From the NCBI GenBank assembly GCA_003024785.1, contig PUQB01000071.1:372001-436000 (forward strand): 64,000 nt of DNA. Direction: 5' to 3'. Below, piece after piece: positions 28,979-59,719 of the stretch. The number at the start of each line of letters is the position of its first letter. Position 1 is the first letter of the stretch. The notes under the pieces were generated by a model, which was given only the letters and a program-made list of their open reading frames with translations, had not been told where the DNA came from and did no database searches. The DNA is from Selaginella tamariscina (taxonomy: Eukaryota; Streptophyta; Lycopodiopsida; Selaginellales; Selaginellaceae). The position numbers and the translations under genes were made by a program.

Positions 28979-30592
28979 TGTCATAATTACTCTTTATTTT
29001 GGATGTTAACTGTTGTTATTTACCGAATTATATTCAAACTATATTGAAATTAAGTTTTAAGTGTTATAAGAAACAAGCCAGCTTAATGCACTTGAATATA
29101 TAATGATGGTTTGACCAAGTGTCATTAGATATTTACAAATAAGGTTGGGCTAAGTTAGCACTTATATCTAAAAAATTCTTACCCTCATTTTTTGTGTTTT
29201 ATTTGGGTTATTAATTAGTTTTGGTGAATTTGACATGTTGAATATGTTTAGAAATACCCATAGGGTTGACAAGTTAGGGTTTAAGGGTTATGGATCATTA
29301 GCCAAATATATTTTAAAATTGAAATTTTGTACTAGCCCACTTTACAAGGAAAACATGGGGGTATATAAGTATTACATGTACTAAGGGTTTATGGGTTTTA
29401 TAACTGAGTTTATTACTTTGCTACCAGTACAAGCTCTAGCTTGTGTATTCATAGCACAAACTTCTGTTGTGCCGCCTCAACTTTCAGACAATAAGGTATT
29501 ATGGTAGTTTACCCTTAATGTTGACGAATGGAGGTCATGTTGGAATACACATTTCAATGGTTAAGGTTAGGGCTTGTCTTTAGCCTCCTCTTTCATATCA
29601 AGTTAGGTGTAACACTCACAAATAAATTAAGGCACATCCATATGTCTGTGGACATGGGATCTTAACTAACAGGTTTTTATCACCAAATTTTTTAGGGTTC
29701 ATATAGGAGTTCTAGAGTTGTCATTTATGAGCCATGTTTGTGACACTTGGTGTAACTCTTGAAATATAGAGGCTAATATGATAACCCACATCGTGAGAGA
29801 CACTGTCACATGAAGATGTGACACCAAACTAGATGACACACGATACAATGCTCAAGGTACACCCTTTGGAGTTGTGTCATGAGTTTGTCTTTAAGGGGTT
29901 AAATACTTCAGAAACATACATGCTTGTACTTGCAGCATGGTGCTAAGCCTTGGGCATTAACTCAAGGGAGGTTAAGTCTTGTAATTAAGTGTGCTTTTGA
30001 CACACTTGGCAAATGTTCTCCTTGAGATTTAAGAGTTGAATAACCTAAGCTCATTAGTAGAAGCCCTTTTGTGAGGCACTTACAAGGTCGTATATTTAGG
30101 GTTATCCCAAACTTAACCTTAGAAAGTTTACTTAGTAAAACACTCGTGTATGCTTATGGTGCACACTCTTATCCTCATTAAGTACTAACCCTAGGTCTAA
30201 GGTACTTAGCCACTTAAACCCTTAAGGGTTTGTCATGGGTCAGGGTACCCCTTGTTGCCCTAAAAAGGGTTGTATTACTAGGAAAGGGTGATTCCTCAAG
30301 GGATAAGTGGCAATGCCTTAGCTCTGTCATGAGGATATGTGCAAGACATGACTGCTTATGGAATTAGGGAATGAGCCTGTCTATGTCTTTTAGGGCATGA
30401 TCCTAAAGTCTACTCATGTTATCCGGTGGTCATTTTAGGGACTTAGGTAATACTCTAAGTTTCATGCCTATTTAGATTAAACTATTAAGGTTGTCTTAGA
30501 AATTAGCATTGTTCACATAAGATGTTAATGTCAAATAGCCACTTGTAATCACGTGTTGCCACGTGTTGGCTCTTCAAATAAAAACTTTGACA
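28979..30592. mobile_element. Solo LTR, family A, copy 1
   Basis: Begins TGTCATAATT and ends ...aaaactttgaca, so it has TG...CA termini and is 1614 bp long. It is flanked by aaata (28974-28978) and aaatc (30593-30597), a 5-bp target duplication with one mismatch. It is homologous along its length to 44861-45385 joined to 52067-53095, with shared blocks such as gcacttg...ggtatc/atatat, 'gtgacacttggtg' and 'ccacgtgttggc'. It has no internal domain and no ORF longer than about 60 codons, so it looks like a solo LTR left by recombination. The parent lineage (Copia or Gypsy) cannot be told from the LTR. Confidence 0.75.
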
Positions 30593-31812: not shown

Positions 31813-32179
31813 TATCACAATCCACAGAATACAGGATATGTTTACAAGATACAACCTACAAGATACAAGATACAAGAATGGGATACATGATATGCTTATA
31901 GGATATACCTACAGGATATGCTTATAGAATATGCTTACTTACAAGATAAGGGACATTATTTTTAGCTCATGCCTAGATTAGCTTTGGAGTATCATTTTTA
32001 ACTTATGCCTAGATTAGCTCTTGGAGTTGTGAATATAAAAGCTCCAGCCTAATTGATGTACAATCAGTTACTATCAACACTAGTCATTCTATAATCATTT
32101 TTGTTTTGTTCCTTGCTCTTGCCTTGCTCTTGAGTCAAGCCTCCTTGTTCTTATTCTACTCTTGGGTCGTGGCTTGACA
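31813..32179 (+). repeat. 5' LTR of element 1
   Basis: Starts tatcacaatcc and ends ggcttgaca. The first part has degenerate repeats of the type acaggatatgcttata. A TATA box (tataaaa, 32034-32040) lies in the same relative place as in element 2. A pyrimidine-rich cttgctcttg repeat region precedes the end. Both LTRs start TA rather than the usual TG. Confidence 0.88.
32034..32040 (+). promoter_or_regulatory. TATA box in the 5' LTR of element 1
   Basis: tataaaa lies within the block ggagttgtgaatataaaagc, shared with element 2 (which has cataaaag at 45670-45677). It is the likely start region of the genomic RNA. Confidence 0.5.
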
Positions 32180-32209
32180 ATTTGATAGTAATTGATTATA
32201 TCCTTGCAG

Positions 32210-35200
32210 ATCCCGAAAGTATCGTTCAGCATGCACGAAGTTAAGGAAGATCACACAAGGATTCAGACCTTTCTGTCTATGCATCCGAATTTTAACAACT
32301 TTGCACGAACATTCTATGGGACGAGACTACATTGATCGAATACTTTTGTTTGGTTGAGGTGATGTGAAGGACCTTCTTCTTACGTTACCGGATGCCAAAC
32401 CTTCGCAGAGATCATGCAACATGCCGTTCGCTATGACAATTGTTTTGTTCGAGCATCGTCAGAAAAAATCCTATCAGTAGTTTCTGCAATATGTAGTTGT
32501 AGAACATGTTCCTATAACATCTTCTGGAGTAGTTCCTATGGAAGTCAGCAAATACAAGTGTGGCCCACTTCAACTGTTGAAAAGAACATCGTCACGGTGA
32601 GAACTTATGTTTGTATTGTGGTGAAGCAGCAGAATATCTTGTTAAAGCCAAGAAGTTCAAGACACGTGAAGTTGAAGTGAAGTTCAGTTGGAAAACTTTA
32701 ATGTCCACTTTGTCTAAGAGCCGTGAGTTGGACATAAGCGCAAACTTTATTGGTGTTGCTCACACCATTCCATCACTATACACATTCACCTCAATAATCG
32801 AGAGCTCAAGGAGTCTGCCCATTAGACACTGGTGCAAATGCATGCTTCATAAATGACATTTTGCAGCTACATGACATTTTGGTGATAAAGTTGAAGCGTG
32901 CAGTTCTTATAAAGGTTGCAAATGGTCATCTGATTGCTTTTGATGTAGTTACTCATGATACCACACCTCTCTCTTGCACCCATGGCACATTCAGTTGTTT
33001 AATTTTCTTCACCCAAGTTTTGGGCATGCCATGGTTTCATGGTTTGCAAATCCTTAGATCAACTAAAGGTCTAGGACGCTCACGTTTTCCTCTCCAACAA
33101 CCAGGATTAATCATGTACCTTCCTGCGTGCAGGATATGACCTTAGTTTGAGGCAGTATAAGCTATAGGATTGACCGTGCCTATTCCTGTTCAGTGTCAAA
33201 GGTTCCTCCTTAACAGGATCTATCTCCTGTCAGTTCATCAGCACTTTCGCAAGCTTCTCACTCTTGTGCATTCACGGATTTTTTGTACAAGGTTCTTCCA
33301 TTCTGTACTCATTCAACATCAGCACATGTTTTTCCCAATCTTGCCTCTTTCATTTTTGCTTATATTCCATCCCCAAGATCTTTCCTCTTTTTCATTCACA
33401 GCTCCCTTCTCCTCTCCGCGTTCTTACCATTATTATGCATGAAACTTGTCACTGACTACTCCTTTTCATTTTTTTGCTTTTTAAATAACTCCTACATCCT
33501 CTATGTATTTGACTCTTCTATTTTTCAATCTCTTTCTCCTTCTTCTATTTTTTCCCTGCATCCAAGTTATCACTCCTTTCAAAACGTTTTTGATAAGCAC
33601 AAGGCTACAATTCTTCCTATTCATAGGTCTTATGACTGTTCTATCAATCTTGCAAAGAGGAAGACTCCACCATTCAGACCAATTTATGCACTATCACTTA
33701 CAAAATTAGGTTCTTCGCCAGTACATCAAGGACAACTTGATATCCGGCTTCATTTGTCACTCAAAGTCCCCTGCAGGAGCACCTATCTTCTTTGTTAAGA
33801 AGAAAGATGAGATTTTGCATTTGGTTGTGGACTACAAAGGTTTAAATCAAGTCACCATTTAGAATTGGTACCCGTTGCCATTGATCCCGAAACTTCTTGA
33901 TCGACTATGAGGAGCAAAGGTGTTCACAAAGATCAATTTACGAGGGGCTTACAATCTTGTACAGATTCGTCAAGGCGATGAGTGAAAAACTGCCTTTTGT
34001 ACAAGGTATAGACATTCGAATACACGGTGATGCCTTTTGGACTTACAAATGCCCCAGCCATGTTTCAACACATGGTGAACGACATCTTTCGTGAATTCTT
34101 GGACCAGTTTGTGGTGATTTACCTCCAAGAACCAAGCGGCACATGACAAGCATGTACGACTAGTTTTACAAAAGCTTTGTGAGCATGGCATGTATGCAAA
34201 ATTGGAGAAATGTTTTTTCAATAGGGATACTGTGGAGTTCTTGGGCTACATCGTCTCTCTTGCCAGCGTCTCAATGGACATGCACAAAGTGAAGACTGTC
34301 ATGGAGTGGGAGAGACCTAAGTATGTATGAGATGTATAATGTTTCTTTGGCTTTGCAAATTTCTACAGGCGATTCATACAGGACTTCTCCAAGCGTGTAC
34401 TTCCACTCACGAAACTCACCAAGCGCATAGGGGATTTTTCTTGGTCCGACAAAGTGGAACATGCATTCACAACACTCAAGGACGCCTTCACAACAACTCC
34501 GATTTTAGCACATCCTAATCCTTCTCGTCCCTTCTTCTTTGAAGATGTTTCGGACTTTACAGTAGGTTTTATCCTATCACAAGTTGGAGAAGACAAGTTA
34601 CTCCATCCTGTAGCCTTTCATTTCGTAAGTTTCTTTCGACGGAGATTAATTACGAGATTCATGATAAGGAATTTAAGGCCATTGTGGATTCGTTCGAGGA
34701 GTGGCATCACTTTCTAGAAGGTGCTGCACATCCTGTACAAGTTCTTACGGATCATAAGAACCTTGAGTTTTTTCAAATGGCTCAAGTTCTCAATCGGCGA
34801 CAAGCTAGGTAGGTGGAATTCTTATTACATTTTGATTTTGTCATCATCTACATGCCTGATTTTCGGAGTGGCAAAGCAGATGTATTATCTAAACGCTCTT
34901 ACCTTGCACCAACCCCGGGTGATTCTACATATGACTATCAAAAGCAAGTGTTGTTGGGTCTTGATTGATTTCGGCTTGTGGGACTACAGGTTTATCAAGC
35001 TCCAGCAAATTCAACACTTCTATAGGGCATCTGTTTGCAATTAGCTACAGACGACTTGGCGAAGAATGTGTTCTCACACATTAGTCCTAACATTGCAAGC
35101 TCCTCTTCCTCCACTTCCCATACAGACTACAAGTTGTTTGCCATACAAGACGGACTCCTGTACCCGGGAGGGTCTCGTGTACATTCATGTTGGTGTTTAC

Positions 35201-36420
35201 AGAACTCGTGTGGTACATGATTGTCATGATACCTCGGTTACATGACATTTTGGTGTGGCCAAGACAATTGAGTTAGTGACTCGCAACTATTGGTGGCCTG
35301 GGTTGCAAGGTTTTGTGGAAAAGTTTGTACGGAGTTGTGACACCTGCAATACGTCAAAGATGCCTTGTTATGCACCCTCTGATCTCCTTCGTCCTCTTCT
35401 TGTTCCTTTGCTCCTTAGAGATCTATTTCTATGGATTTCCTCACAGATCTTCCTCCTCGTGGATTTGATGCAGTTTTGTGGTGGTTGACCGTTTCACCAA
35501 ATAGGCTCGTTTTCTACCCTGTAACAAGATAGCTACATGCCAAACAACTGCTGAGTTGGTGATCCATGAAGTGTTTCGACATCATGGTTTTCTAGAGAGC
35601 ATTATTTCTGATCAAAACCCATAATTCATATCCAGATTTTGGCAAGAGCTTCTCGGAGTCTACAAGTTAAAATGAATCTTTCTTCAGGATATCATCTATA
35701 AACTGATGGGCAGTTAGAATGCATGATTCAGACCTTGGAGCAGTATCTTCGCTGCTTCATTAGTTACCAATAGGACAACTGGTTGGACCTTCTTCTTATG
35801 GCGAAATTTGCTTATAAACAACTTTGTTCACGCATCTACATGCCATACACCTTTCTTCGCTCTTATAGTCTACCATCCACGTTTTGACTTTGCTCCTTAT
35901 GCTTCTCCTTCTTCCGCTCTTGCAGTATAGGATCATCTCTAGCATCTTCATCAGGTACATGATGATCTTCGAGTTCATCTTCAGCAGGCACATGAACGAT
36001 ACAAGCATTACGTTGATGCTCATCGTCAGCCGGCACTTGCATACAAGGTTTGTGATTTCATGTGGCTTCTTCGTCGGCATATCTGCACCAATAGGCCTTC
36101 TTTTAAGTTGGATTTTCAATGATTGGACCCTTACAAGATTGCAACTGAGGTCAATTCTGTAGCTTTTCGATTAGAACTACTATATACTGTGAAATTTCAT
36201 CTGTGTTTTATACCTCTTTGTTGGAACCGTATCATCCTTCTTTTCTTATTAGTCATGCTTCTTTTCCTCCCCCTCCTGTGATCATTAACGATGAACCTAA
36301 GTACAAAGTTGCAGCCATCCTTAATTCTCGTCTTCATCGCCGTCAACTTCAATACTTAGTGAATTGAAAAAGGTTATTTGCCTATCGATTGCATTTGGGA
36401 ACCTACATCCAATTTATTCC
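32210..36420 (+). pseudogene. gag-pol remnants of element 1
   Basis: Recognisable in order: gag 3' half; the protease site D-T-G-A (32825-32836), still intact here; RT pieces (about 33890-34300) in which the Y-L-D-D codons are lost in a deletion near 34120; RNase H pieces (about 34450-34740); the integrase zinc-binding segment (RNYWWPGLQGFVEKFVRSCDTC, about 35285-35350); the integrase core and C-terminus; and a chromodomain remnant (about 36295-36400). The frame is broken many times. Confidence 0.85.
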
Positions 36421-36510
36421 ATGCTTTTTCCAATGTTGCTACCTTTCATTAACATTATCCTACTAAATCAGGTCCTAGGACTTGTAAAACTCGTCCTTAG
36501 GGAGGAGTGC

Positions 36511-36885
36511 TATCACAACTCGATATATAATATAGGATATGCTTATAGGATATAGGATACAAAATATAGATATATACCTACATGATATATTTACAGAATA
36601 TGCTTATATGATATATCACAGAATAAGGAACATTATTTTTAGCTCATGCCTAGATTAGCTTTTGGAGTTGTGAGTATAAATGCTTTGACATAAGTGTTGT
36701 ACAATTAGTTATTATCAACACCAGTCATTTTATGATTATTCTTTTCATGTTCTTTACTCTTGCTTTGCTCTTGAATTAAGCCCCTTTATCCTGCTCTTGG
36801 GTTGTTCTTTTCATGTTCCTTGCTCTTGCTTTGCTCTTGAGTTAAGCCCATTGTTCTTATCCTGCTCTTGGGTTGTGGCTTGACA
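36511..36885 (+). repeat. 3' LTR of element 1
   Basis: Starts tatcacaactcg just after the purine-rich tract ggaggag (about 36500-36507) and ends ggcttgaca. It contains an internal duplication of about 60 bp (ttgctcttgctttgctcttg...), making it slightly longer than its partner at 31813-32179. Confidence 0.88.
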
Positions 36886-42820: not shown

Positions 42821-44682
42821 TGAAGTTTCCAATAATCTGTATTTTAACTATTTTTACTCTCTTTCTTTATTTAAAAGTTAATTTTTTGATATTTCTATTT
42901 TCCGCCATGGCTCATGTACGGAAGAAGCATCTGTGACTCATGTGCAATACAGCGCATCGATACGTCATATAATTAAAAAATGGAGTAAATTTAAGCTTTA
43001 AATACAAATATCCATTATATAAATTTCTATATTAAACATGAATTAAAGAGATTAGGATGGGATTTGACAAGGATGATATTGTGATTTGAAAACAAAATTA
43101 TATTTCATTTTTAAATAAGTACACTAGTTCTATAGCATATCACATAGATATTGATGTATAATAATATATTTAAAATATAGAATTGAAAACTATACATTAT
43201 ATAATTATAAATAAAAAAATTATAATCCTTTTTATGTGGACTCATTCCTCTGTAGCATAGCATGAAACAATATAAAGATGATATAAATCATTCATACTAA
43301 TTTACATTTTTCTTAAGACATTCACATTACAGCATCTTATTAATTTTTGGTTCTAAGTTTTATCATGTCCTTATGAATTATGTTGCTTTAATATGTTCTT
43401 CATATATATCATGTAGAGTTTTTTTATGCCAAGGTAAGTTTTAATATTAGAGTCGAATAAATATGTACGTTCAGCATTAAAGAACCACATAAAACTAGTC
43501 TTTCACTATTTAGTCATAAAGATTACAAATTGTCTCTAAACCCAACCCATTCACCTTTCAACTTTTATAAATGGTCATTGTGACCCCATCCTAAACATAT
43601 TAATTCTCATGCGTATCTATTGTGATGCTTATAAATAAACATCTTGATTAAGTTTCTAAAATGGGTTAAAATTTTTCAATTAAAGTTTTAGATTACTTCT
43701 TTTATCTTTATGAATTCATCGTATAAATGCATGTTATAACCATTTATCATTTACTATTAAATTTCAAAATTTAAAGTAAAGATTAAACATTATTTCCCTT
43801 TAGAATGGACAAGTACTATAGTTGGTAGTGAAATGGGAGGTTGAAGCATATGTGGTCATTATGAGAGATTTTAAGTCACGAACACCCTTTACACAAGCCA
43901 AATATGTAACTTTTAGTGGTGAATGTGGAAGTAATAGAATATGAGACAAATGTATACAACCACACGTTGAGGATGAGAATTCAATGTCATAGCATGGCTA
44001 ATTTTTATATAGCAATAAGGTTACTCATTCATAATGGCACCGATACATATTTAGAAATAAGAAGAATATCATGCAGAACATAATATGAGAAATTACAAAT
44101 GATTATCTTATCACATTTATGTTGAGTATTGAAATCATAAAAGAGTTTTGGCTCTTGAATTATTTTATTAAACTAATTTATAAATCAATGTACATGCGTT
44201 TAACCCTACTACAATATGCGAAGATAAACATGGAGAAGATGAGATCAATCATGTATTAAATTAATGTTATTAAATAAACCTTTTTCTAGTGTGCACTCGA
44301 AATTATAAAACCAAAGAGGATAACACCCCACAAGAGAAGAAGGCACAAATTAATAAAATTGTTAAAGTAAGAAGTTATGAAAGTGTTTATTAAATAGTAT
44401 ATTTTAATTTTCATGTAATTGCCTAAGAATGTAGCATATCATATGCACAATATAAATGAGTCAAAAAGGATCTTAGGTTTGTTGAATTAATGAAACTTTT
44501 TCGTAATGTAATTAAAATTAAGAAATAGACAATAATACAACTTTAAGAAAGCATACAAAGTATTCATGAAGAAGAGAGCGATACTTTTATTAAATGATAT
44601 AGATGTATAGACATTATATTTCATGGAACTTTATTTTATAAAAGTGGAGAGCTTGCATGAGATTTAATAAGAAGAAGATCTA
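42821..44682. other. AT-rich intergenic sequence, possibly the decayed LINE 5' part
   Basis: No gene is seen. The right half (about 43800-44680) may be an unrecognisable upstream part of the LINE whose reverse transcriptase begins at 44683, but I could not identify an endonuclease domain. Confidence 0.5.
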
Positions 44683-44860
44683 GACTTCATAAAGGAACAG
44701 ATTAAGCAAGTTATTCTCAAACTCCTAAGAGAAAAGTCAATATATGTATATGGCTTTACAACCAAACTTTTCAAGGCAGCAATAGCTCAATCTGTAACAA
44801 AGATAGTTATACCAATATTTAACAATATAATCCATACAAGATTCCCACAAGCATGGTTAG
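44683..44860 (+). pseudogene. LINE reverse transcriptase, 5' part
   Basis: One open frame with IKEQIKQVILKLL, then YVYGFTTKLFKAA, then IPIFNNIIHTRFPQAWL. This is the N-terminal RT region of non-LTR retrotransposons (the known pattern is ...DVYGF...LF...IFNNII..G.FP..W). It is interrupted after the AWL codons by the family A LTR. The rest of the RT resumes in the same frame at 53096. Confidence 0.8.
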
Positions 44861-45098
44861 TGTCATAGTTTTTATTATGATTCGACTCTTTATTTTGGAC
44901 GTTAACTGTTGTTATCTACTGTACTATATTGATGGACCCTACATATAGTAGGAAATAGCCCGCTTAGTGCACTTGGGTATCTGGTGATGGTCCGGCCAGG
45001 TATCATTAAGTATTTGCAGGAAACTCTAAGCGAAGCTAGAACTTACCTTCTAGAAATCCACCCCCAATTTTAATGTCTCGGCCCACTTACACATTCAG

Positions 45099-45134
45099 GA
45101 GGGGGAGGGGGAGGGGGAGGGGGAGGGGGGGGGG
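45099..45134 (+). repeat. (GGGGGA)n run
   Basis: At least four GGGGG-A units followed by a run of ten G. It lies in the family A LTR copy 2 and is not seen in copy 1. It has strong G-quadruplex potential. Confidence 0.85.
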
Positions 45135-45385
45135 CTCCATCACATAAATAAGGTAGAGTATGAGTAGAAGAGCTCTAGGTTCATGACTGAGTTTCGTTGC
45201 TCTTTTGCCGATACAAGCTCTAGCTTGTGTCGTTAAGGCACAACCCTTTATTGTGCCGTCCTAACTTCCAGATGATAGGGGTACGTCCCACCTTTGGGGT
45301 AGCACACCCTTAACGTTGGCGAATCCATGCCTAGAAGGTCTTGTCGGAATGGATACTTTAAGAGGCAGAGGTTGAGGCTTGTCTC

Positions 45386-46001
45386 TGTCACGACCCGATA
45401 CAGGATATAGGATTTCGAATACAGGTTTCCGAATATAGAATATAGGATATGGGATACAGGATATGCCTGCAGATATTCCTACAATATATACTTACAGGAT
45501 ATTCCTAAAGGATATGCCTACAGGATATTCCTACAGGATATACCACAGGATATGCCTAGAGGATAAGGGACATGTGGACTCGTTTTAGCCTTTGCATGCA
45601 TATAGCCACTTTTAGATGCATGCAACCACTTTTAGCACTCATGCCTAGATTAGCTCTTGGAGTTGTGAGCATAAAAGCTCCGACCTAATTGTTGTACAAT
45701 CTGTTACTATCAACACCAGTCATTCTACGATCATTCTTGTTCTTGTCTTATTCGTGACTTGCTTCTTGCCTCCTGTTCCTATCTTGCTCCTGGATCCTGT
45801 CTTGCACCTTCCTATCCTGCTCCTGTCTTGCTCCCGGATCTTTCCTGTTCATGTCTTGCTCCTGAGTTCCTACTTCTTGTCTTGCTCCCTGTCCTACTCT
45901 TGAGTCAAGCCTTCTTATTCTTGAAACCCTGCTCTCTTCCTGGTTCCTGGATCGTGGCTTAACAATTACTATCTCCCTAGTTCCTGGATCGTGGCTTGAC
46001 A
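45386..46001 (+). repeat. 5' LTR of element 2
   Basis: TG...CA ends. The first 180 bp is a run of degenerate acaggatatnccta units, many near-palindromic (aggatattcct). The TATA-like cataaaag is at 45670. The last third is pyrimidine-rich with repeated cttgctcctg/gatcctgt. The end is a duplicated ~38 bp unit (ttcctggatcgtggcttgac). No standard TGG-starting primer-binding site follows it; the next bases are gtttgatagtaac. Confidence 0.9.
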
Positions 46002-46092
46002 GTTTGATAGTAACTGCTTTCATACTCTCCGATTCCCAGTTACTTTTTTTTTCTCCTTCGTTTTCCTCTTTTTGTTTTTCCTTTCATAGATC

Positions 46093-46980
46093 ATGGCCGA
46101 TTTTGAGCACTTTCAACGCGAGCACCAAATGTTGTTTCATGAGCTGGCCACTTTGTGCCAAGTGGTCACAAATCTGCAAGGTTCCACCAATGCGGCACAT
46201 GCAGCTGCTGATGCATCCTCCAAGGCTGCTGCGCAGGCTCTCTCTCAAGCATCAGTGGTTTCCTCTCCATCGAACTTTTCTTCGGAGCCGAAGATCAGCA
46301 TGCCAGAAAAGTTCAGTGGCAATCGCGCGATTTCCAAGGTTTCCTAAATCAGATCCACTCTTGATCCGCATGCAACCAGCCGCTACTCGATTGATGCATA
46401 AAAGGTTGGCCTTTTGGCATCTTACTAATTGATCTCCACGAGCTTGGGTTGCCCCTTGCTGGAGCGTGGCAGCCCATTGATGGAAGACTTTGAAGGTTTC
46501 GTGGCTGCCTTTGAAGCCTACTTTGGAGATCCTGATAAGTATCGTTTGCATGCACGAAGTTACGAAAGCTCACCCAAGGATCCCGATCAACTTCTGTCTA
46601 TGCATCGAATTTCAGCAACTTTGCACGAACATTCTATGGGACGAGACTGCATTGATCGAACTTTCGTTTTGGGTTGAGGGATGACGTGAAGGACCTTCTC
46701 CTTACGTTACCAATTGCCCAAACATTAGAGAGATCATGCAACAAGCCGTTCGCTGTTGACAACGTTTGTTGAGCATCGTCAGGAAAGATCCCGTCAGCAA
46801 TTCCTGCAAACCAATCCTACAGCTGTGGTACATGTTTTGCAACACCTTCTGGAGTAGTTCCTATGGAGGTTGAGAAATCCAAGCGTGGCTCTCTTTCCGC
46901 TGTTGAGAAGCAATGTCGCTGCAGTGAGAACCTATGCTTGTATTGTGGTGAAGCAGGACACAAGGTGGTAGAATGTTCTA
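46093..46980 (+). pseudogene. gag remnant of element 2
   Basis: ATG at 46093 opens a capsid-like N-terminus (MADFEHFQREHQMLFHEL, then an Ala-rich coiled stretch) for 84 codons. Frames then change repeatedly. A CCHC zinc knuckle, CLYCGEAGHKVVEC (C-x2-C-x4-H-x4-C), is intact at 46935-46976. Gag packages the RNA and forms the particle. Confidence 0.85.
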
Positions 46981-47124
46981 TTAAAGCCAGGAAGTTCAAA
47001 CACGTGAAGTTGAAGCTGAAGTTCAGTCGAAAAACTTCAATGTTCACTTCATCTAGGAGCCCGAAGTTGGACGTAGGTGCAGGCTCCATTGGTGCTGCTC
47101 ATACCATTCATCACTAAGTTTCTT

Positions 47125-47515
47125 GTACACATTCATCTTAATAATCGAGAGCTCAAGGAGTTTGCCCTGTTAACATTGGTGCAAATGCATGCTTCATGGA
47201 TGACACTTTTGTAATTCAACATGGCATTCCGGTGGTGGAGTTGAAGCGTGCAGTTCCTGTAGAGGTGGCCGATGGTCGTCTGATTGCTTCTGGCGCAGTT
47301 ACCCATGCTACCAAACCTCTCTCTTGCAGTCATGACATTCAACTGTTCAATTTCCTTCAACTTGATAAGACTCGGTCGACTCCCATCATTTTGGGCATGC
47401 CATGGTTCGTTATTGCAAATCCGCAAATCAACTGGAGGTCTAGGACGCTCACGTTTTCCTCTCCAACAGCCAGGATCAATCTGTACCTTCCATCGTGCAG
47501 GATACATCCTTAGTA
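47125..47515 (+). pseudogene. Protease region of element 2, active site lost
   Basis: A retropepsin-type segment runs on from the zinc knuckle. The active-site codons at 47172-47183 read N-I-G-A instead of D-T-G-A, two changes of the G-to-A and C-to-T kind. Element 1 keeps D-T-G-A at the same place. The downstream frame is open from 47196 to 47513 (VVELKRAVPVEVADGRLIAS and IILGMPW). Confidence 0.8.
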
Positions 47516-47544
47516 TCTGACAGTACAAGCTACAGGATTGACCG

Positions 47545-47800
47545 TGCCTGTTCCTATATCAGTGTTGAAGACTCCTCCTCGACAAGATTCACCTCATGTC
47601 AATTCCTCAGCACATCCACATGCTCTCTCCACTCCTGTAAGTTTGAGATTCCTGTACAGGGTTTTCCAATCCTGTATCAATGTCGAAGGTTCCTCCTTAA
47701 CAGGATCCACCTCTTGTTGGTTCGTCAGCACACTCGCAGGCTTTCCTCACTCCTGTGCAACCATGGACTTCTGTACAGGATTCTTCCAATCCTTTACACT
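47545..47800 (+). repeat. Minisatellite-like duplication in the protease-RT linker
   Basis: A unit of about 118 bp (agtgttgaagactcctcct...cactcctgt, then aatgtcgaaggttcctcctt...cactcctgt) is present twice, with part of a third. Element 1 has one unit (about 33190-33300). It encodes a Ser/Pro/Thr-rich linker in element 2. Confidence 0.6.
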
Positions 47801-48109
47801 CGTCAACATCCACATAGGTTTTTCCCAATCCTGCCTCTTTTTGTTACTCTGCTTCTGTTCCACTCCTCAAGATCCTTCCTCTTTTTTAGTCACAGTTCCC
47901 TCCTTCTCCTCTCCAAGTTCTTACCACTACCATGCATGAACTTGCCACTGATCCTGCTCCTTTCCATCTTTTTGCCTTTCAAGTAACTCCTAGTCCTCTT
48001 CTATCTTTCTTGTATCTCATTTTCTTATTTTCAATTCTCCTTTCTCCTTCTCCTTCTCCTCCTTCTTCCCTACCATCCAAGTATCACTCCTTTCAGGAAC
48101 GTTTTTGAT

Positions 48110-49277
48110 AAGCACAAGGCTGCAGTTTCTTCCTGTTCACAAGTCCTACGACTGTTCCTATTGATCTTGCGGAAGGAAAAGACTCCACCATTCCAACCGA
48201 TCTATGCATTTTGTCACCCACAGAGTTGGAGGTTCTTTGTCAGTACATCGAGGACAACTTGGCATCCGGCTTCATTCGTCACTCAAAGTCCCCTGCAGGA
48301 GCACCTATTTCTTTGTCAAGAAGAAGGATGGGAGTTTACGTTTGGTTGTGGACTACAGGGGTTTGAATAAGTCACCATTCGGAATCGGTACCCGTTGCCA
48401 TTGATCCCGGAACTTCTCGATCGGCTGCGAGGAGCAAAGGTGTTCACGAAGATCGACTTACGAGGGGCCTACAACCTTGTACGGATTCGTCCAGGCGATG
48501 AGTGGAAGACTGCCTTTCGTACAAGGTATGGACACTTCGAGTACACGGTAATGCCTTTCGGACTTACCAATGCCCCAGTCGTGTTCCAACACATGGTGAA
48601 CGACATCTTTCGACTTCTTGGACCAGTTTGTGGTGATCTACCTCGATGACATTTTGATTTTCTCCAAGGACCAGGCGGCACATGACAAGCATGTACGATT
48701 GTTCTACAGCGGCTTCGCAAGCATGGCTTGTATGCGAAGTTGGAGAAGTGTTTTTTCGACAGGGATTCTGTAGAGTTTTTGGGCTACATCATCTTCCTGC
48801 TGGCGTTTCCATGGACATGCACAAGGTGAAGACCATCATGGAGTGGGAGAGGCCCAAGTGTACAAGACGTACAATATTTCCTTGGCTTTGCAAACTTCTA
48901 CAGGCAATTCATACAGAACTTCTCCAACGTGTACTTCCACTCACAGAACTCACCAAGCACACAGGGTTTTCTCTTTGTCCGACAAGGCGGAACATGCATT
49001 CATAGCACTCAAGGACGTCTTTACGACAGCTCCGATCCTAATACATCCTGATCCTTCCCGTCCCTTATTCATTGAAGCAGATGCTTCAGATTTTGCGGTA
49101 GGTTCTATCCTATTACAAGTTGGAGAAGACAAGTTACTCCATCCTGTAGCCTTTCACTCTTGTAAGTTCCTTTTAGCGGAGATCAATTATAAGATTCATG
49201 ACAAAGAACTTAAGGCCATTATAGATTCATTCGAGGAGTGGCAGCACTTCCTGGAAGGTGCTGCGCATCATGTATAA
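48110..49277 (+). pseudogene. Reverse transcriptase-RNase H of element 2
   Basis: RT segments: [17 protein letters not shown] (about 48440-48490), [15 protein letters not shown], then the catalytic Y-L-D-D codons intact at 48639-48650 but in a different frame. RNase H: PLFIEADASDFAVGSILLQ and INYKIHDKELKAI (49062-49230). At least three frame changes separate the blocks. The order and motifs are standard for Ty3/gypsy pol. Confidence 0.88.
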
Positions 49278-49559
49278 GTCCTTACGGATCACAAGAACCT
49301 GGAGTTTTTTAAACGGCTCGAGTTCTTAGTCAGCGATAGGCTAGGTGGGCGGAATTTTTATCACGTTTTGATTTTGTCATGTCTATAGGCCCGGTTTCCG
49401 GAATGGTAAGGCAGACACATTGTCTAGGCGCTCTTAACTTGCACCGACCTCGGGCAATCTTGCATATGATTGTCAAAGGCAAGTGTTATTGGGTCCTGAT
49501 TTTTCCAGCTTGCGGCACTATAGGTTCATTAGGCTCCAGCAAATTCAACACTTCTACAG

Positions 49560-50929
49560 GACATCTGTTTGCAGTTAGTTACAGACGACTTGGCAAGGAA
49601 TGTGTTCTCACACATTAGTCCTGACATCGCAAGCTCCTCTTCCTCCAGTTCTCGTACAGACTACAAGTTGTTTGCCATACAGGACGAACTCCTGTACCGG
49701 GAAGTCTCTTGTACGTTCCTGTTGGTGTTTGCAGGACTCATGTGGTACAGGATTGTCATGATACCCCGGCTACAGGACATTTTGGTGTGGCCAAGACAGT
49801 TAAGTTGGTGACTCGCAACTATTGGTGGCCTGGGTTGCGAGGTTTTGTGGACAAGTTTGTACGGAGTTGTGACACCTGCAATAGGTCGAAGATGCCTCGT
49901 CACGCCCTCTAGTCTTCTTCGTCCTCTTCCTATTCCTTCTGCTCCTTGGAGATCCATTTTTATGGATTTCCTCACAGATCTTTCCTTCTCATGGATTTGA
50001 TGCAGTTCTTGTGGTGGTTGACCGTTTCACCAAACAGGCTCATTTCCTATCATGTAACAAGACTGCTACAGGCCAGACAACTATTGAGTTGGTGATCGTG
50101 AAGTGTTCCGACACCATGGTCTTCCTGAGAGCATTGTTTGATCGAGGTCCACAATTCATGTCCAAGTTTTAGCGAGAGCTTCTTCGGAGTCTACAGGTTA
50201 AAGCGGATCTTTCATGATATCATATATAAACTGATGGGCAGTCAGAACGCACAATTCAGACCTTGAAACAGTATCTTCGTTGCTTCATCAGTTACCAACA
50301 GGACAACTAGTTGATCTTCTTCCAATGGCGGAGTTTGCCTACAACAACTCCGTTCATACATCTATAGGCCAAACACCTTTCTTTGCTCTTATAGGTTACC
50401 ATCCACGTTTTGACTTTGCTTCTCCTTCTTCCACTCCTGCAGTACTGGATCGCCTCCAGCATCTTCGTCAGGTACAAGAGGAATCTCCAGGTTCATCTTC
50501 AGCAGGCACAGAACGGTACAAGTATCATGCTGATGCATGTCATCATCAGCCGGCACCTGCATACAAGATTGGTGATCTCATGTGGCTTCTTCGTCGACAT
50601 ATTCGCACCAACAAGCTTCTTCTAAGTTGGATTTTCAACGATTGGGCCCTTACAAGATTGCGGTGGAGGTCAATCCTGTAGCTTTATTCGAGTTACCATC
50701 TACGGTGAAACTTCATCATGTGTTTCACACTTCTTTGTTGGAGCCGTATCATCCTTCTTCTTTTCCTGGTCGTGCTTCTTCTCCTCCCCCTCCTGTGGTC
50801 ATCAACGATGAACCTGAGTACAAAGTTGCAGCCATCCTTGATTCTCGTCTTCATCGCCGCCAACTTCAATACTTGGTGGATTGGAAAGGTTATTTGCCTA
50901 CTAATCGCACTTGGGAACCTATGTCATAA
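49560..50929 (+). pseudogene. Integrase and chromodomain of element 2
   Basis: The zinc-binding domain is intact (H-x6-H ... C-x2-C: CHDTPATGHFG ... SCDTCNRSK, 49755-49890). The core holds VVVDRFTKQAHF near 50010 and a degenerate second Asp region near 50140. The C-terminal part (AEFAYNNSVHTSIGQTPFFA, LHHVFHTSLLEPYHPS) is open. The chromodomain (EYKVAAILDSRLHRRQLQYL, then VDWKGY...TWEP; 50811-50920) is well kept. Chromodomains of such elements are thought to steer insertion to marked chromatin. The frame then runs into the inserted family A fragment. Confidence 0.88.
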
Positions 50930-51322
50930 TTTTTACTATGACTCGACCTTTTACTTTGGGGTTTGACTGTTGTTACCTACTGGATTATGTGACTACCCTA
51001 GATGTAGAAGAAACAAGCCCGCATAGTGCACTTGGGTATCTAGTGATGGTCCGGCCAGGTGTTGTTAGGTATTTGCAAGAAACTCTAAGCGAAGCTAGCA
51101 CTTCAATTTAGAGAACCCTCCCCTGTTTTGACGTTCCAGGTTAGGGTTCTTCGCAAAATATAGCTTATCAAAATAAGGGTTAGGGACACCTCTAGGGTTG
51201 ACCTAACCCCACGTCCTAAACCTAACCCCTAAGCCATCCTTGATTCTCGTCTTCATCGCCGCCAACTTTAATACTTGGTGGATTGGAAAGGTTATTTGCC
51301 TACCGATCGCACTTGGGAACCT
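50831..51322 (+). repeat. 90-bp chromodomain duplication flanking the LTR fragment
   Basis: 50831-50920 and 51233-51322 are nearly identical (gccatccttgattctcgtct ... acttgggaacct) and lie on either side of the family A fragment. Element 1 has this stretch once, running straight into catccaatttattcc. The second copy here rejoins that sequence (gcatccaacttactcc). Confidence 0.88.
50922..51232. mobile_element. Family A LTR fragment inside element 2
   Basis: Starts with the family A LTR terminus TGTCATAATTTT and follows copy 2 (ggtatct-gtgatggtccggccaggt, gaaactctaagcgaagcta) for about 310 bp before breaking off. Element 1 has no such sequence at this point. Confidence 0.85.
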
Positions 51323-51429
51323 GCATCCAACTTACTCCATGCTTCTTCCAAAGTTACTGCTTTTCATTGGCATTATCCTGCTAAACTAGGTCCCAAGACT
51401 CGTGGAACTCGTCCTTAGGGAGGAAGTGT

Positions 51430-52066
51430 TGTCACGACCCGATACAGGATACAGAATTTCGGATACAGGTTTTCGGATACAAGATACAGGATATGCCTGC
51501 AGGATATTTCTACAAGATATACCTACAGGATATTCTTAGAGAATATGCCTACATGATATTCCTATAAGATATACCACATGATATGCCTAGAGGATAAGGG
51601 ACATGTGGACTCGTTTTAGCCTCTGCATGCATATAGCCACTTTTAGATGCATGCAACCACTTTTAGCACTCATGCCTAGATTAGCTCTTGGAGTTATGAG
51701 CATAAAAGCTCCGACCTAATTGTTATACAATCAGTTATCAACACCAGTCATTTTACGATCATTCTTGTTCTTGTTCTTGTCTTGTTCGTGACTTGCTTCT
51801 TGCCTCCTGTTTCTGTCTTGCTCCTGGATCTTGTCATGCGCCTTCATGTCTTGCTCATGTCTTGTTCCCAGATCCTATCCTGTTCCTGTCTTGTTCCTGG
51901 ATCCTATCCTGCGCCTTATCTTGCTCTTGAGTTCTTACTTCCTGTTCTTCTCCCTGTCCTGCTTCTGAGTCAAGCCTTCTTGTTCTTGGAACCCTGCTCT
52001 CTTCCTAGTTCCTGGATCGTGGCTTGACAGTTGCTCTCTTCCTGGTTCCTAGATCGTGGCTTGACA
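51430..52066 (+). repeat. 3' LTR of element 2
   Basis: TGTCACGACC start directly after the purine tract, same layout as the 5' LTR, and the same duplicated end unit (gatcgtggcttgaca twice). The two LTRs differ by scattered substitutions and by length changes in the cttgctcctg repeats, so the insertion is not very recent. Confidence 0.9.
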
Positions 52067-53095
52067 GTATCTTGCCTCCTCCTCCACGTCAAGCTAGGTG
52101 TAGCACTCATGTTTAAGCAAGGCACATTCGTGTCCTTGTCCAACCGTGGGCGTGGGATCTTTTTGACAAGTTCACATTTCTCGGTTCCTGAGGGTTCACT
52201 AAGAGGTTCTAGAGTGGGCATTTAAGAGCCACGTTGTGGCACTTGGTGCAACTCTTGAATCTAAGGGCTATGGCATGATAGCCCACATCGTGGAAGGCAG
52301 TGTCACATAGAGATGAAACACTGGACTAGACGTCACATGATACAACGCCCAAGGCATGCCCTTTAGGTCGTGTCATGGGTTTGTCGCCAAAGGATTGGAT
52401 ACTCTAGTAAACTTACATGCTTGTGTTTGCATTAGGGTGCTAATTTGCTCAAGGGAGGTTGGGTCTCGTAACTATGTTTGCTTTGGCACACCTGGCTAGG
52501 GGGTGTTTTCCTTAGGATCTAAGGGTTGAACAACCTAAGCTCATTAACAGAAGCCCTATTGTGAGACACTCATAAGGTCATGTACTTAGGGTTATCCAAA
52601 CCTAGCATTAGGGAGTTTGCTTAGCAGAACATTCGTGTTCGCTTATGGCGCATACTCATGTCCTCACTAAGTACTAGTCCTAAGTCTATGGTATGACTTG
52701 GCCATTCAAACCCTTAGGGGTTAGTCATGGTTCAAGGTACCCCTACTCGCCCTAAAGGGGTTGTTTTCTCGAATGAGGGTGATTCCTCAAGGGATAAGTG
52801 ACTGTCACGAGGGCATGTGTGAGACACATCTTTTTTCTAGGGTTAGGGCATGAGCATGTCTAGGTCTATTGGGATAGGATCTAAAGTCTACTCGGAATAT
52901 CCTTTAGGGTTGGGGATGGTCATTTTAGGGGGCTTAGGGTATTACTCTAAGTCTTTTGTTTAACTAGGCATCTGAGTCAGACTCTTAGGGTCATCTTGGA
53001 AGACTTAACATTACTCACATACGGAATTGATGTCGAAAGGCCACTTAATAGCCACATGTTGCCACGTGTTAGCCCTCCGGGTTAAAACTCTAACA

Positions 53096-54130
53096 GTTAG
53101 TAAGCATTGTTGTGTCCATATACAAGTTGGGAAACCCTCTAATGTCATTCAACTATCATACCATCATGGTAAGTTCAATCTTTTCAAAATTGTTTGTGTT
53201 AATGATTTAGAAGAAGTTGACAAAATGGATAAAGAAAGCATGAGTTCAAATAGAAGGACAAATAAGTTTTAAACTACATTTGTCATGCATAAATCGCTAA
53301 TAACATTTAGAACTTTTGTCCAACAAGTTCAAATGAAGATGAGTTGAATGTCTAAGCCACTTTCAATTGGGGCCATTAATCACATGTGATATTAAGGTGA
53401 GACATAAATGAACACTCTCACCAACTCTCTTCCATCTATACATCAATGTCTTAGAGGAGTAATTAAGAGACAAAACTTTTCATATGTAAAGTTAGTTGAG
53501 ATGTACTTATATCTTTTATTATATGCATATGATTTTTATTCTTTGACTTATCAAATGAGATGATGCAACAACAATTGCAGTTGTGAAGTTTTAGGACGAA
53601 GCATGACTAATAATGAACATGACCACGACCCAAATATTAGTCTTCGACACTTCTTAATTAGGGCAAGGGCAATGCTTAGAGACAGGAGATCAAAGTGATA
53701 CATGAATATAAGTACATGGTGAAAAGGAGAAATTAGTAGAAGGAAAGAGTGATGAATATGATTCCGGTAGCTCTCTATACATATTAAATCATGTAGAGTG
53801 AGGTAAAGAGGAATGATGTATAAGCGTGGGATGTGAAACACATATACTACCTGATCAAAATGAGTATATTATTGTTATATGAATATGAGATGTGGGCCTC
53901 AGTCCTTTGCAAATAACATGGAATAAGATAGAATGTCAGAATTGACAACACTCGAAATAATATTTAAGGCAATGCAGTACAACATTATGGTTCTAGAGAC
54001 ATATTTATGTTAATGAAATTGATGGGATGGAAGCACACAATATAATATCTCATTAACATGAAAAAGACCTGATAATTAAATTGGCTAAAGCCATAGTTAA
54101 AGACTTATAGAGTTTGACTAGAGAGAGCAA
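53096..54130 (+). pseudogene. LINE reverse transcriptase, 3' part
   Basis: Continues the RT of 44683-44860: SIVVSIYKLGNPLMSFNYHT, IMVSSIFSKLF, then TLSPTLFHLYINVLEE (53408-53455), then LLLYAYDF (about 53513), where LINEs have YADD. The second Asp pair is thus altered to A-Y-D. Weak 3' segments of LINE type follow (EMWASVLCK, TTLEIIFKAMQY, about 53885-53985). Several stops are present. Non-functional. Confidence 0.8.
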
Positions 54131-54914
54131 TTATGGAGAACAGTGAAAAGAGTTATGCAATGTCCTCTTAATCTTATTCAATGAAGTACTTATGTTGGTA
54201 TGCAAATTAAGTGTAATATTAGCACTACTATGTTATCATTCACTTATGTTGCTACTAATTTATTTTTCTTTCTTCTTTTACATGATACTTATTTCTATAC
54301 GGAGTACAATATTCAAAATATATAAAGTTGACCCTTTAATTTTTTATATAATTACAAGGAGGTTTGTGCATGTTATTAAGGTGATTATGATTAATAATAA
54401 GATCAATTTGGGGATTTTTAAGAATACTTAGATAATTTAAAATTTATATTAAATCAGAGGATTAATTTAATAATTTTCCCTATAAATAAATTTTTGATAT
54501 CTGACAAATCTAAATTATGTATACCACTTGATAATATTATAATATTTAAGTTCTATTATATTCTTAATAAACACTAATTTATATATATATATTAGATAAT
54601 ATACAATGCCAACTTAAAATTTTATTTTGATTTAATTTTATAGATTTACAAACAAATAATATAGTACATATGAATATAGTTATAAATTTTTAACGTGGTT
54701 ATATTTGCTATATAAGATATCCAGTGTGTGTGTGTGCGCGCGCGCGTGCAAGCATGTTCGAGCATTATTATATGATCATCTATATAACATGTGCGCGATC
54801 GTAGCCATGCAAATGGATCGTGGTGACAAAACAGCCTAAGAACTCGTGGTGTGATATATACCAAACGCATTTATATAAAAAAATATATGAAATTTAAACA
54901 TTATGTTGATACTG
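54131..54914. other. AT-rich spacer with TG/GC run
   Basis: No gene. It contains gtgtgtgtgtgcgcgcgcgc at about 54725-54746, an alternating purine-pyrimidine tract. Confidence 0.6.
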
Positions 54915-56055
54915 TTCAGGAACGGATACACGCTATCACACGCATGTACGATGTCATAAATTTGTATGTATAAATATAATGTGATACTGGTAGTTAAGAT
55001 GGGCTTATCCATCCTGACTTGAGCGTTTTCCTGTAGTATATAGAGGTTTTTACACCTGTTCATGTATATATATGTATACTCGTATGTACACATGGATATA
55101 TATGTGTGTGTGTGTACATGTTGCATGCATGTATGATGTCCAATCTGAACATCATAACGTGGGTGTTTGTGTCACACTCTCTCTCTCACACACACACACA
55201 CACACATTTTGCGTGTGAGTCACTCATATAATTTTCTCATGGTAAAACCATATCCATGTAAGTATAAAGATATAGACATGCAAATGTACATGAATTCAGT
55301 GGAAAAAAATACTTATTGAAATATATATTGATTATTTATATTTATAATTGTATATATAAAATATTGATTCATTATATAATAAATATTAATATATGTATAA
55401 TATTAGTCACGTTCAATACGAAAGTTGAATTTGACTATTAATTCAGCAACTGGATGCATACATAATCTTGTAAAGATATATTTTATAAATATAAGGTCAT
55501 GTTTTATTTTAAAATATAAATATTCTAGAGATAATATGAATGTAAATTGAAATTTTAAAATATTAAAAAATAAGGTATAGCCATTAAAATGTTGTGATGT
55601 GGTTGGTTATCTTTATCATAAATTTAATTATTTTTTCAATAAATTTTAAAAACTCACTTTTATTTTATTTATCATATATATATGAAATATATACACATAC
55701 ACGATTAGAATTAATCCTAAGTCAAATTGTATCAAAACTATTAATTCATTTGATCGTTAGCTGAGCAGTTTAAGGTGAGGTTAAATTAATAAATCTTGAT
55801 AAAATCTGCTATGACGTTAGTTTGGTTAGAAAGTTCAAATTTTAGGTAAAATTTATATTAAAATAATAATTATTATTATTATTGTCATTTGCAAATCTGT
55901 GCACAAAATAATAATTTTTCAAGGCGATTGTGCCATCTGCACTTTGACAATGGTTATTAAATAATTTTATATTTTTTTTAAAGTTGAAATTCAAATTGGA
56001 CGTGTTCAAGTTAACAACAATTGTATGCCCATAGAATCTATTTGAACATGTGTAT
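54915..56055. repeat. Kinase-upstream duplication, unit A
   Basis: Co-linear with 57050-58445. Shared blocks include gatgggcttatccatcctga (55001 and 57112), 'ataaggtcatgttttatttta' (55490 and 57822) and 'tgccatctgcactttgaca' plus 'ggacgtgttcaag' and 'tagaatctatttgaa' (55931-56048 and 58326-58441). The offset grows from about 2.1 to 2.4 kb through indels. Homology stops at 'tagaatctatttgaa'. Confidence 0.8.
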
Positions 56056-57049: not shown

Positions 57050-58445
57050 ATGTTCAGGCACGCATGTACGTGTGATGTATGTATAAATATAATGTGATAA
57101 TGGTAGTTAAGATGGGCTTATCCATCCTGACTCAAGCATATTTCTGTAGTATACGAACGTTGTAACTAAAATGAATGATATATGAAAATGGAAATATAAA
57201 TAAAATTTTTATTTAATATTTATGTATTATTTTTTATTATTTTAAATATACATTATAAAAATATTTTTTCTTTAAACATATATTATTCTAAACATTATTT
57301 ATTTATATTAAAAAATATTAATTAAATAATTTAAATTATTAATTAATACAAAAATGGGACTGTAGACATTCCCATTTTAGTTAAAACATTCATGTATATA
57401 TGTTCTACTTACATAACGACATGGTATCCATGAATGCAAACATGTACATACTAGTGTACATATATGTTAAAACCTCTAGTAATGTAGGTGTTTGTCTCAA
57501 ACACAAACACCCACATCGTGTGTGTGAGAGAGGGATTAGGAAATTATTACAATTATATTATAATTTTGTCATATCCACATAAGTATAAAGATTTAGCCAT
57601 GAAAATGTACAGGAATTCATATTTATTGATTATTTATATTTATAATTGCATATAAATATTGATTCTTTATATAATAATTATTCATATATGTATAAGTTTA
57701 ATATGCAATAGTTAATATTGCTCATGTAAAGTTGAAGTTGACTATTAATTAGTAACTGTAAAACAGCATAGACAATAGTGTTTATATTTAATTCAATTTA
57801 TAAAGATTTATTTTATAAATATAAGGTCATGTTTTATTTTAAGTTTGGTAATTATTATTTTTAATAAATTAAAAAAGGTTCATAATTAATTTAGTTTGAA
57901 CTTTGTATATAAAGAGAGATGAAAGAGAACATTAAGATACAAACTATTTCTACAGTAGATAAAGTTAAAATTTTAAAATTTTGAATTATATATATATATA
58001 TATATATGATATATACAACACAAATTGTATTAATTCATTTGACTTGGTGGCTGAGCAATTTAACTTGAGTACTTCATTGACAAGGTTAAATTATTATAGA
58101 AATCTTGATAAAATCTGTTAGAAAGTTCAAATTTTAGTTAAAATTTAATATTATAATAGTAATATTTAATTTTATTATTATTATTGTCATCGACAAGTCT
58201 GTGCAACAAAATGCTAATTTTTCAAGGCATTGTTTTAATTTATTATTATATTTTCATGCAATATACGTTTGACTATTAATAAGATATGCGCTTTTCTTTT
58301 TTTCTAGATATGTATTGTCTAGGTGTTGCCATCTGCACTTTTGACAATGGTTTTTAAATAATTTTTTAAAGTTGAAATACAAAATGGACGTGTTCAAGCT
58401 AACGACAGTGTTTACGAATATGCCGGTAGAATCTATTTGAAAAGA
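57050..58445. repeat. Kinase-upstream duplication, unit B
   Basis: Second unit of the diverged tandem duplication, ending immediately before the kinase leader. It therefore includes what should be the kinase promoter. It contains a TA run at 57988-58008. Confidence 0.8.
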
Positions 58446-58541
58446 TTCGAACCCGAGAACGGCTGCGAGAATATTCTCCGGGTAAACGTACGCGTCGGTT
58501 TGTTTTAAAAGAGACGAAAAAAGAAAGAAGAAAAAGAAGCC

Positions 58542-59719
58542 ATGGCTATGGCGGAAAGAACGAAATGCGCTCAAGATTTCAACAATTCCACACAGCAAGG
58601 TCGCGAATTTGGTCAAGAAATCAGTAATTTCCAGCAATTCGGACAGGAAATGGAGACGCTGAGCACAAGCGGCAGCTACCCCAATCTGCTGGAGAAGTAC
58701 GAGATCCAGGACAGAATTGGAGATGGCGGACAAGGCGAGGTCTACAGGGTCCGCCGGCATGTAGACGGAGCAGTATTCGCTTGCAAGACGGTGCAGATCC
58801 GTGATGCCCGGGAGCTGCAGCTGGTGCAGCAGGAGGTCCGTACAATGCAGCGGGTGCGGGGATTCCAGGGTGCCGTACAACTCGAGGAGGTAATCCTAGA
58901 TCAGTTAGATAGAGAGGCTTGTTTCTGGCATCTCGTGCTTGAGCTGTGTGCATGCAGTTTGCATGATAGGATCCAGATCGAGCAGGGGCTCTCCGAGAGG
59001 GAAGCCGCTCTCCTCGTCACCTCGCTTTGTAAATCTCTACAGCACTTGCACAGCCTTGGCATCGTCCATCGCGACTTGAAGCCTCCCAACATACTGCTGA
59101 CCAGCTCCTCGCCCCCTTACGAACCCAAAATCGCAGATTTTGGCCTGTCCGTTGCGTTCTCCATGTCGGGTATCCAGTTGATGAAGGGGTCTGTGGGAAC
59201 TCCGAAGTACCTCGCACCGGAGGTTCTGAGGATTCATTCTACGACAAGAGGGTGGATATATGGGGGCTGGGCCTCATCCTGTACGAGGCCTTGAGTGGCA
59301 AGACTGCTTTTCAGGGGCTCGATTCTGATTTCGTTCTTGAGAGGTTGACATGGGTCGACATGCCTGCAGATATGCTGGATTGGTCGGGTGTGTCTCTGGA
59401 AGCAAAGGAACTCGTACTTGGTATGCTTTGTTTGGACCCAGACAGGCGATTAAGTACAGAGGAGATATTGAACCATCCCTGGCTTGTGAGGAATTGCGAG
59501 TGTGGAGATGGTTTCATTCCGAGGACTCCTTCCAGAGTTGTCAAGCTCAGGCGGCTCAATGGTAGGTGGGTATCCGAGAAAGAAATCGTGGAGAGGAAGC
59601 ACGAAGATAGGAAAAGGAAACACGAACATGACCAGGCTCAAGCGAGGGGTAACAAGCTTAGGCTTAAGTGTGTTAACGGGTTGTGGCAGGTTGTAAAGCC
59701 TTGTCCAGTTGCAGTTTGA
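58542..59719 (+). CDS. Intronless Ser/Thr protein kinase with a basic C-terminal tail, one frameshift
   Basis: ATG in strong context (gccATGGct). Residues 1-50 are Gln-rich. The kinase domain has the Gly loop G60-D-G-G-Q-G65, Lys82, Glu98, HRDLKPPN (176-183; the usual Glu before Asn is Pro), DFG (199-201) and APE (225-227). Then the frame is lost: near 59229-59231 one base is missing, and the next frame continues SFYDKRVDIWGLGLILYEAL to HPWL. After the domain comes a tail of about 65 residues with two related motifs (LNGRWV and VNGLWQV) around a charged KHEDRKRKHEHDQ stretch. The full product would be about 392 aa. The domain resembles the plant CDPK-related/PEPKR2-like group but has no EF hands. 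It is GC-rich against AT-rich flanks and has no intron, so a retrocopy origin is possible. Confidence 0.85.

Follow-up and report, generated by a model that had tools for sequence, protein, structure and literature searches.

We describe a nest of four retroelement layers in a 64,000-nucleotide stretch of DNA from Selaginella tamariscina (assembly GCA_003024785.1, contig PUQB01000071.1, positions 372,001 to 436,000 of the forward strand), hereafter the window, whose own numbering is used throughout. A decayed element that, judged from its relatives, is a long interspersed nuclear element (LINE) is interrupted by a unit of a repeat called family A; this unit is split by an element whose domains mark it as a chromovirus, and the chromovirus holds a fragment of family A. 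An earlier note on this DNA had claimed such a four-level nest. All four layers and both 5-bp target duplications are present, the junction coordinates are exact, and the nest is confirmed. The order LINE, family A, chromovirus follows from the nesting, from the two 5-bp duplications, and from contiguity with a second family A copy (copy 1) and with LINE proteins. We hold the nest and these first three steps to be practically certain. The whole account, which includes reduction of family A to a solo long terminal repeat (LTR) and capture of the fragment, seems to us to fall just on the side of the probable. In kind, this is an ordinary nest of decayed retroelements, transposon nests being common in plant genomes.

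Comparison of the window with itself returned the LTR pair of the chromovirus, a second chromovirus, a second family A copy, and the family A fragment inside the first chromovirus. The outer layers are given below.

44650 to 44860, forward strand: left part of the LINE reverse transcriptase (RT), ending in the first GTTAG copy (profile positions 88-155).
44856 to 44860, forward strand: target duplication GTTAG, left copy (sequence).
44861 to 45385, forward strand: left part of family A (aligned to copy 1, 28979-29580); its final GTCTC (45381-45385) is the left copy of the chromovirus duplication.
52072 to 53095, forward strand: right part of family A (aligned to copy 1, 29581-30592).
53096 to 53100, forward strand: target duplication GTTAG, right copy (sequence).
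53101 to 53657, forward strand: right part of the LINE RT (profile positions 158-235 and 295-392).
28979 to 30592, forward strand: family A copy 1, with flanks AAATA and AAATC, which agree at 4 of 5 positions (alignment).

For the outermost layer, RT relatives were fetched with a plant-type query sequence (1097 proteins at E <=1e-5); the best 120 were used, and a profile was built from the 55 of these with at least 330 residues. Many of the organism-named relatives among these best 120 of 1097 belong to the fern Adiantum nelumboides, and the five best matches to the joined site lie outside the named set. When the 120 proteins were compared with the window by tblastn, the right flank by itself was matched at a best E of 4.7e-10, with the top matches at 53100-53300; outside 44000-54500 the best match had an E of 0.086. 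With the empty site restored, the best E was 6.1e-15, and 75 of the 197 rows spanned the junction, with no gap there. The earlier note had proposed this outer excision and alignment to LINE RTs, and its expectation of a full-length, gap-free match held at the junction but not throughout, profile positions 236-293 (58 positions) being missing from the LINE; the frame also carries stops.

The profile gave a similar picture. Read across 44860/53101, the joined LINE frame scored 83.0 bits as one domain without a gap at the junction, the left half ending at profile position 155 and the right half picking up at 158 without a change of frame once the empty site is restored. The two right-hand segments scored 47.4 and 23.8 bits alone, joining the halves added 22.7 bits, and shuffled frames (n=300, from 100 single-base shuffles in three frames each) scored 2.9 bits or less. 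From the gap-free match at the junction and the joined profile score, we conclude that the two halves come from one element. The frame does stop at 44860, as the earlier note had it, but it resumes at 53101, once one GTTAG is removed, rather than at 53096, where the second GTTAG begins. Nor did this profile support an end at 54130: it recognised RT similarity from 44650 to 53657 and gave at best 1.4 bits beyond its position 392.

Several results weigh against this assignment of the outer layer. The left flank alone is weak (12.9 bits in the profile; best E 0.010 by tblastn, among 184 rows at a loose E limit of 1000), Pfam matched no family in the two LINE pieces, and in the read-through Pfam found no RT and one unrelated match at E 0.17. 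A search of PDB with the read-through returned one unrelated chain (E 0.34), and among 78 candidates from a protein database none reached E <=10. Because the decayed frame alone drew no RT from any of these three databases, its identity rests on the fetched RT relatives; on their matches the decayed outer element is a LINE with a LINE-type RT. The weakness of the left half is also what could speak for two different elements abutting by chance. Against this stand the passage from profile position 155 to 158 in one frame, the gain in score on joining and the perfect GTTAG duplication, and we find such a coincidence scarcely credible; moreover, in the best left-flank rows (P0078, P0027, P0021) the match stops at the very residue from which the same protein goes on to match the right flank. 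No alignment that assigned the halves to separate LINE families was seen. Among the fetched relatives, a partial RT (P0007) labelled Enterobacter cloacae complex shares 65% identity with the plant LINE-type query and is apparently of eukaryotic origin, a contaminant of a bacterial record.

The second layer is bounded by GTTAG copies that match at 5 of 5 positions (44856-44860 and 53096-53100), just as the earlier note had described. The left junction reads ...CATGGTTAG/TGTCATAG and the right one ...CTAACA/GTTAG. When the split family A was aligned to copy 1, the alignment ran across the break, where copy 1 has a single GTCTT (29576-29580) and continues without loss. The claim that 52067-53095 continues family A after 45385 is thereby upheld, with the detail that 52067-52071 is the duplication copy GTATC and the continuation begins at 52072. 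Split family A is G-rich and poorly alignable at about 45085-45135. A GGAGGG repeat of 6.2 copies lies at 45098-45134, within the left part.

Each of the two longer family A copies stands as a single unit that begins TGT, ends ACA and is bordered by a 5-bp duplication. Such ends and duplications are usual for LTRs, and a single unit so built presents the picture of a solo LTR. Family A is thus likely a solo LTR. Two observations count against this: self-comparison showed in the window two single family A units and one fragment, with no LTR pair, and the inner 18 bases of the family A ends match in inverted orientation at 11 of 18 and 10 of 18 positions, scores that random placements inside the copy attain in 0.19% and 1.2% of cases. 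The same inverted matches, together with the occurrence of both longer copies as single units, would suit a complete non-autonomous element with short terminal inverted repeats. We consider that alternative improbable, given the LTR-like ends and duplications and given that the chromovirus LTR in the same nest also has TGTCA...TGACA ends. The label LTR that the earlier note gave to family A is therefore favoured by the ends and duplications but is left without an LTR pair in its support. Since no LTR pair of family A was seen, it is not datable by LTR divergence; only the chromovirus is.

The third layer, the chromovirus copy that splits family A (copy 2), and a second copy in the window (copy 1) have the following parts.

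45386 to 52066, forward strand: chromovirus copy 2, with two LTRs; separate stop-free pieces match protease, RT, RNase H, integrase zinc-binding and chromodomain.
45386 to 46001, forward strand: 5' LTR (self-comparison, alignment).
48371 to 48646, forward strand: RT piece (PF00078, E 3.2e-15; Ty3 RT in PDB, E 7.9e-20).
51430 to 52066, forward strand: 3' LTR (self-comparison, alignment).
52067 to 52071, forward strand: GTATC, right copy of the chromovirus duplication, the left copy being GTCTC at 45381-45385.
31813 to 36885, forward strand: chromovirus copy 1, with flanks GCACC/GCACC, without the fragment (alignment).

The inner junctions read ...GTCTC/TGTCACG and TTGACA/GTATC. The two duplication copies agree at only 4 of 5 positions, which counts against the proposed account; the GCACC duplication of chromovirus copy 1 is perfect (5/5). 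With the single GTCTT in family A copy 1, the insertion of the chromovirus into family A with a gtctc/gtatc duplication, proposed earlier, stands. Among ten stop-free pieces of the chromovirus, eight had Pfam matches at E <=0.05 and six of these lay above the curated cut-off, namely protease, RT, RNase H, integrase zinc-binding, and a chromodomain in two pieces that flank the family A fragment. A second RT piece and an integrase core piece fell below it, and Pfam had no match for the piece after the integrase core or for a zinc-knuckle-like piece. RT and RNase H precede the integrase, with the chromodomain at the integrase C-terminus; by these domains and their order, the inner element is a chromovirus (Ty3/gypsy with a chromodomain). 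A distant search of a plasmid collection with 46100-50900 gave no match.

The LTRs of copy 2 differ at 55 of 599 aligned sites (43 transitions; Kimura two-parameter distance, K2P, 0.0996); this count was taken as the divergence, the BLAST value of 83% for the pair including gaps. The LTR pair of copy 1 is more diverged (54/300 aligned sites, K2P 0.212). At the end of the 3' LTR of copy 2, a 37-bp unit is doubled (51995-52068), and a diverged form of the same doubling occurs in the 5' LTR.

Like the nested LTR retrotransposons of plants described in the abstract of PMC6911290, where nesting is said to be common, the elements here were inserted into older ones, and this can be read from their ends and target duplications. 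The same abstract states that LTRs are not commonly targeted, in contrast to the chromovirus here, which sits in a probable LTR. Unlike the nests described there, ours has a LINE as its outermost layer, and its innermost piece is no normal insertion.

That innermost piece interrupts the chromodomain of the chromovirus.

50830 to 50921, forward strand: first copy of a 92-bp duplication, in the chromodomain (self-comparison, alignment).
50922 to 51231, forward strand: family A fragment, with exact 5' end and truncated 3' end (aligned to 44861 onward and to copy 1).
51232 to 51323, forward strand: second copy of the 92-bp duplication (self-comparison, alignment).

A family A fragment in the chromovirus had been noted earlier, without the duplication around it. 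The fragment (310 bp) follows family A from that element's first base on for about 300 bp, less clearly in the last third. It differs from split family A at 40 of 210 sites and from family A copy 1 at 80 of 278, so it is unlikely to derive from either. The 92-bp stretch occurs once in chromovirus copy 1 and twice around the fragment in copy 2. An extra A between duplication and fragment was considered and dropped: copy 1 has an A there, which makes the duplication 92 bp and not 91. Since the family A insertions in the window have 5-bp duplications and the fragment lies in a 92-bp one, the fragment is not a normal insertion.

As its origin we favour capture of a free family A end at a staggered break. 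In its specific form, that the 310-bp piece is the DNA end of an LTR element caught at a 92-bp staggered break, with one end exact, the other broken and no duplication of integrase size, this proposal is tentative. The piece may instead, though this too is doubtful, go back to a family A element that inserted normally into the chromovirus and then lost most of its length when an internal break joined the sister chromatid 92 bp upstream and thereby created the duplication. A normal insertion would begin exactly at the family A 5' end, as the fragment does, and would leave the left flank unaltered, as it is (the A at 50921 is the base found in copy 1). That course needs two events, however, and no 5-bp duplication is left.

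When the fragment arrived is a separate matter. The copies of the 92-bp duplication differ at 4 of 92 sites, all transitions (K2P 0.0455); set against the 55/599 differences of the LTRs, p is 0.067 in a binomial test and 0.082 in a one-sided Fisher test. A later date for the fragment is thus not significant, which is a point against placing it last, and it leaves room for the fragment to have been in the chromovirus already before transposition to this site, with the last two steps reversed. Such a reversal appears unlikely to us, as the duplication is by point estimate about half as old as the LTRs, the chromodomain frame is disrupted by the fragment, and the fragment is missing from chromovirus copy 1. 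By comparison of the sequences, entry of the fragment after the chromovirus landed is likely, if weakly dated. The earlier statement that the order of events can be read directly consequently holds for LINE, family A and chromovirus but not for the fragment as the last arrival, because nesting shows only that it entered this copy of the chromovirus.

The course of events that we propose runs as follows. A LINE copy was first interrupted by family A with a 5-bp target duplication, as the GTTAG junctions record. Recombination between two LTRs would then most likely have reduced family A to a solo LTR, the one unit that remains. Into this unit the chromovirus inserted with its own 5-bp duplication, a step documented by contiguity with family A copy 1. 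Last, a staggered break in the chromodomain of this chromovirus may have captured a family A DNA copy by its free 5' end, and fill-in of the staggered ends could have produced the 92-bp duplication.

Tandem duplications arising from repair of adjacent breaks in plants have reportedly been described by Vaughn and Bennetzen in 2014 and by Schiml et al. in 2016. The case here resembles such duplications in that the target duplication is far beyond integrase size and is ascribed to repair of a staggered break, and it differs from them in that its two copies are separated by foreign DNA whose start coincides exactly with the end of a transposon.

The chromovirus itself offered a further clue, to its mode of replication.

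45703 to 45713, forward strand: GTTACTATCAA, putative self-primer at the transcript start, 32 nt after the start of ATAAAA (45671) (complementarity).
46004 to 46014, forward strand: TTGATAGTAAC, putative self-priming site, the reverse complement of 45703-45713 (complementarity).

The putative site sits 2 nt past the 5' LTR and is an exact 11-nt reverse complement of the 5' LTR stretch; chromovirus copy 1 has a 10-nt match at the corresponding place. Set against self-priming are the presence of the match in two of four LTRs, both of them 5' LTRs, with neither 3' LTR retaining it, and the behaviour of shuffled 24-mers, 4 of 2000 of which reached at least 11 nt (maximum 14). On this complementarity, the chromovirus was probably self-primed: the start of its transcript would have paired with the site 2 nt after the 5' LTR and served as primer for reverse transcription.

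In alignment with HP1 (1kna), the Y, W and Y of the aromatic cage are conserved in the chromodomain, so that an HP1-like cage is retained, and the chromovirus has a thymine-rich leader. According to passages of PMC6317226, self-priming is predicted for most plant elements of the Tcn1 clade, which that study found in mosses and club-mosses alone, and 95% of them have the cage; the cage is also found there in Chlamyvir and Galadriel elements and is therefore not specific to the Tcn1 clade. With plant Tcn1-clade chromoviruses, as they are portrayed in parts of PMC6317226, PMC2864245 and PMC3350952, our element shares predicted self-priming, an aromatic-cage chromodomain and a thymine-rich leader before gag. 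It differs from SM-Tcn1 of Selaginella, which is described in the relevant part of PMC2864245 as having neither kind of priming site, along with a thymine-rich leader. Judged by these features, the chromovirus is probably Tcn1-like.

Elsewhere in the window, positions 1-1164 and 2889-4050 are direct repeats, 91.7% identical and about 1.7 kb apart, which could be the LTR pair of an element cut by the window edge. Three collinear repeat blocks, 65-86% identical, link 54939-56046 and 57059-58441. At 58509-59719 on the forward strand lie protein-kinase-like frames in two overlapping pieces, whose relatives carry PF00069 (1285 proteins at E <=0.001; the 120 listed among them at 32-53% identity, from many kinds of organism, none close). 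Positions 22001-26000 are very AT-rich (GC 0.156-0.161). Rfam and transfer RNA scans of the window found nothing.

In conclusion, this nest is a clean worked example of how the order of events can be obtained from nested elements, with each junction checked. The exact-ended but cut-short fragment and the probably self-primed chromovirus are small points for transposon specialists, and they leave the known picture unchanged. If the 310-bp piece is indeed an LTR-element end caught at a break, decayed nests would hold a usable record of failed integrations repaired by the host.

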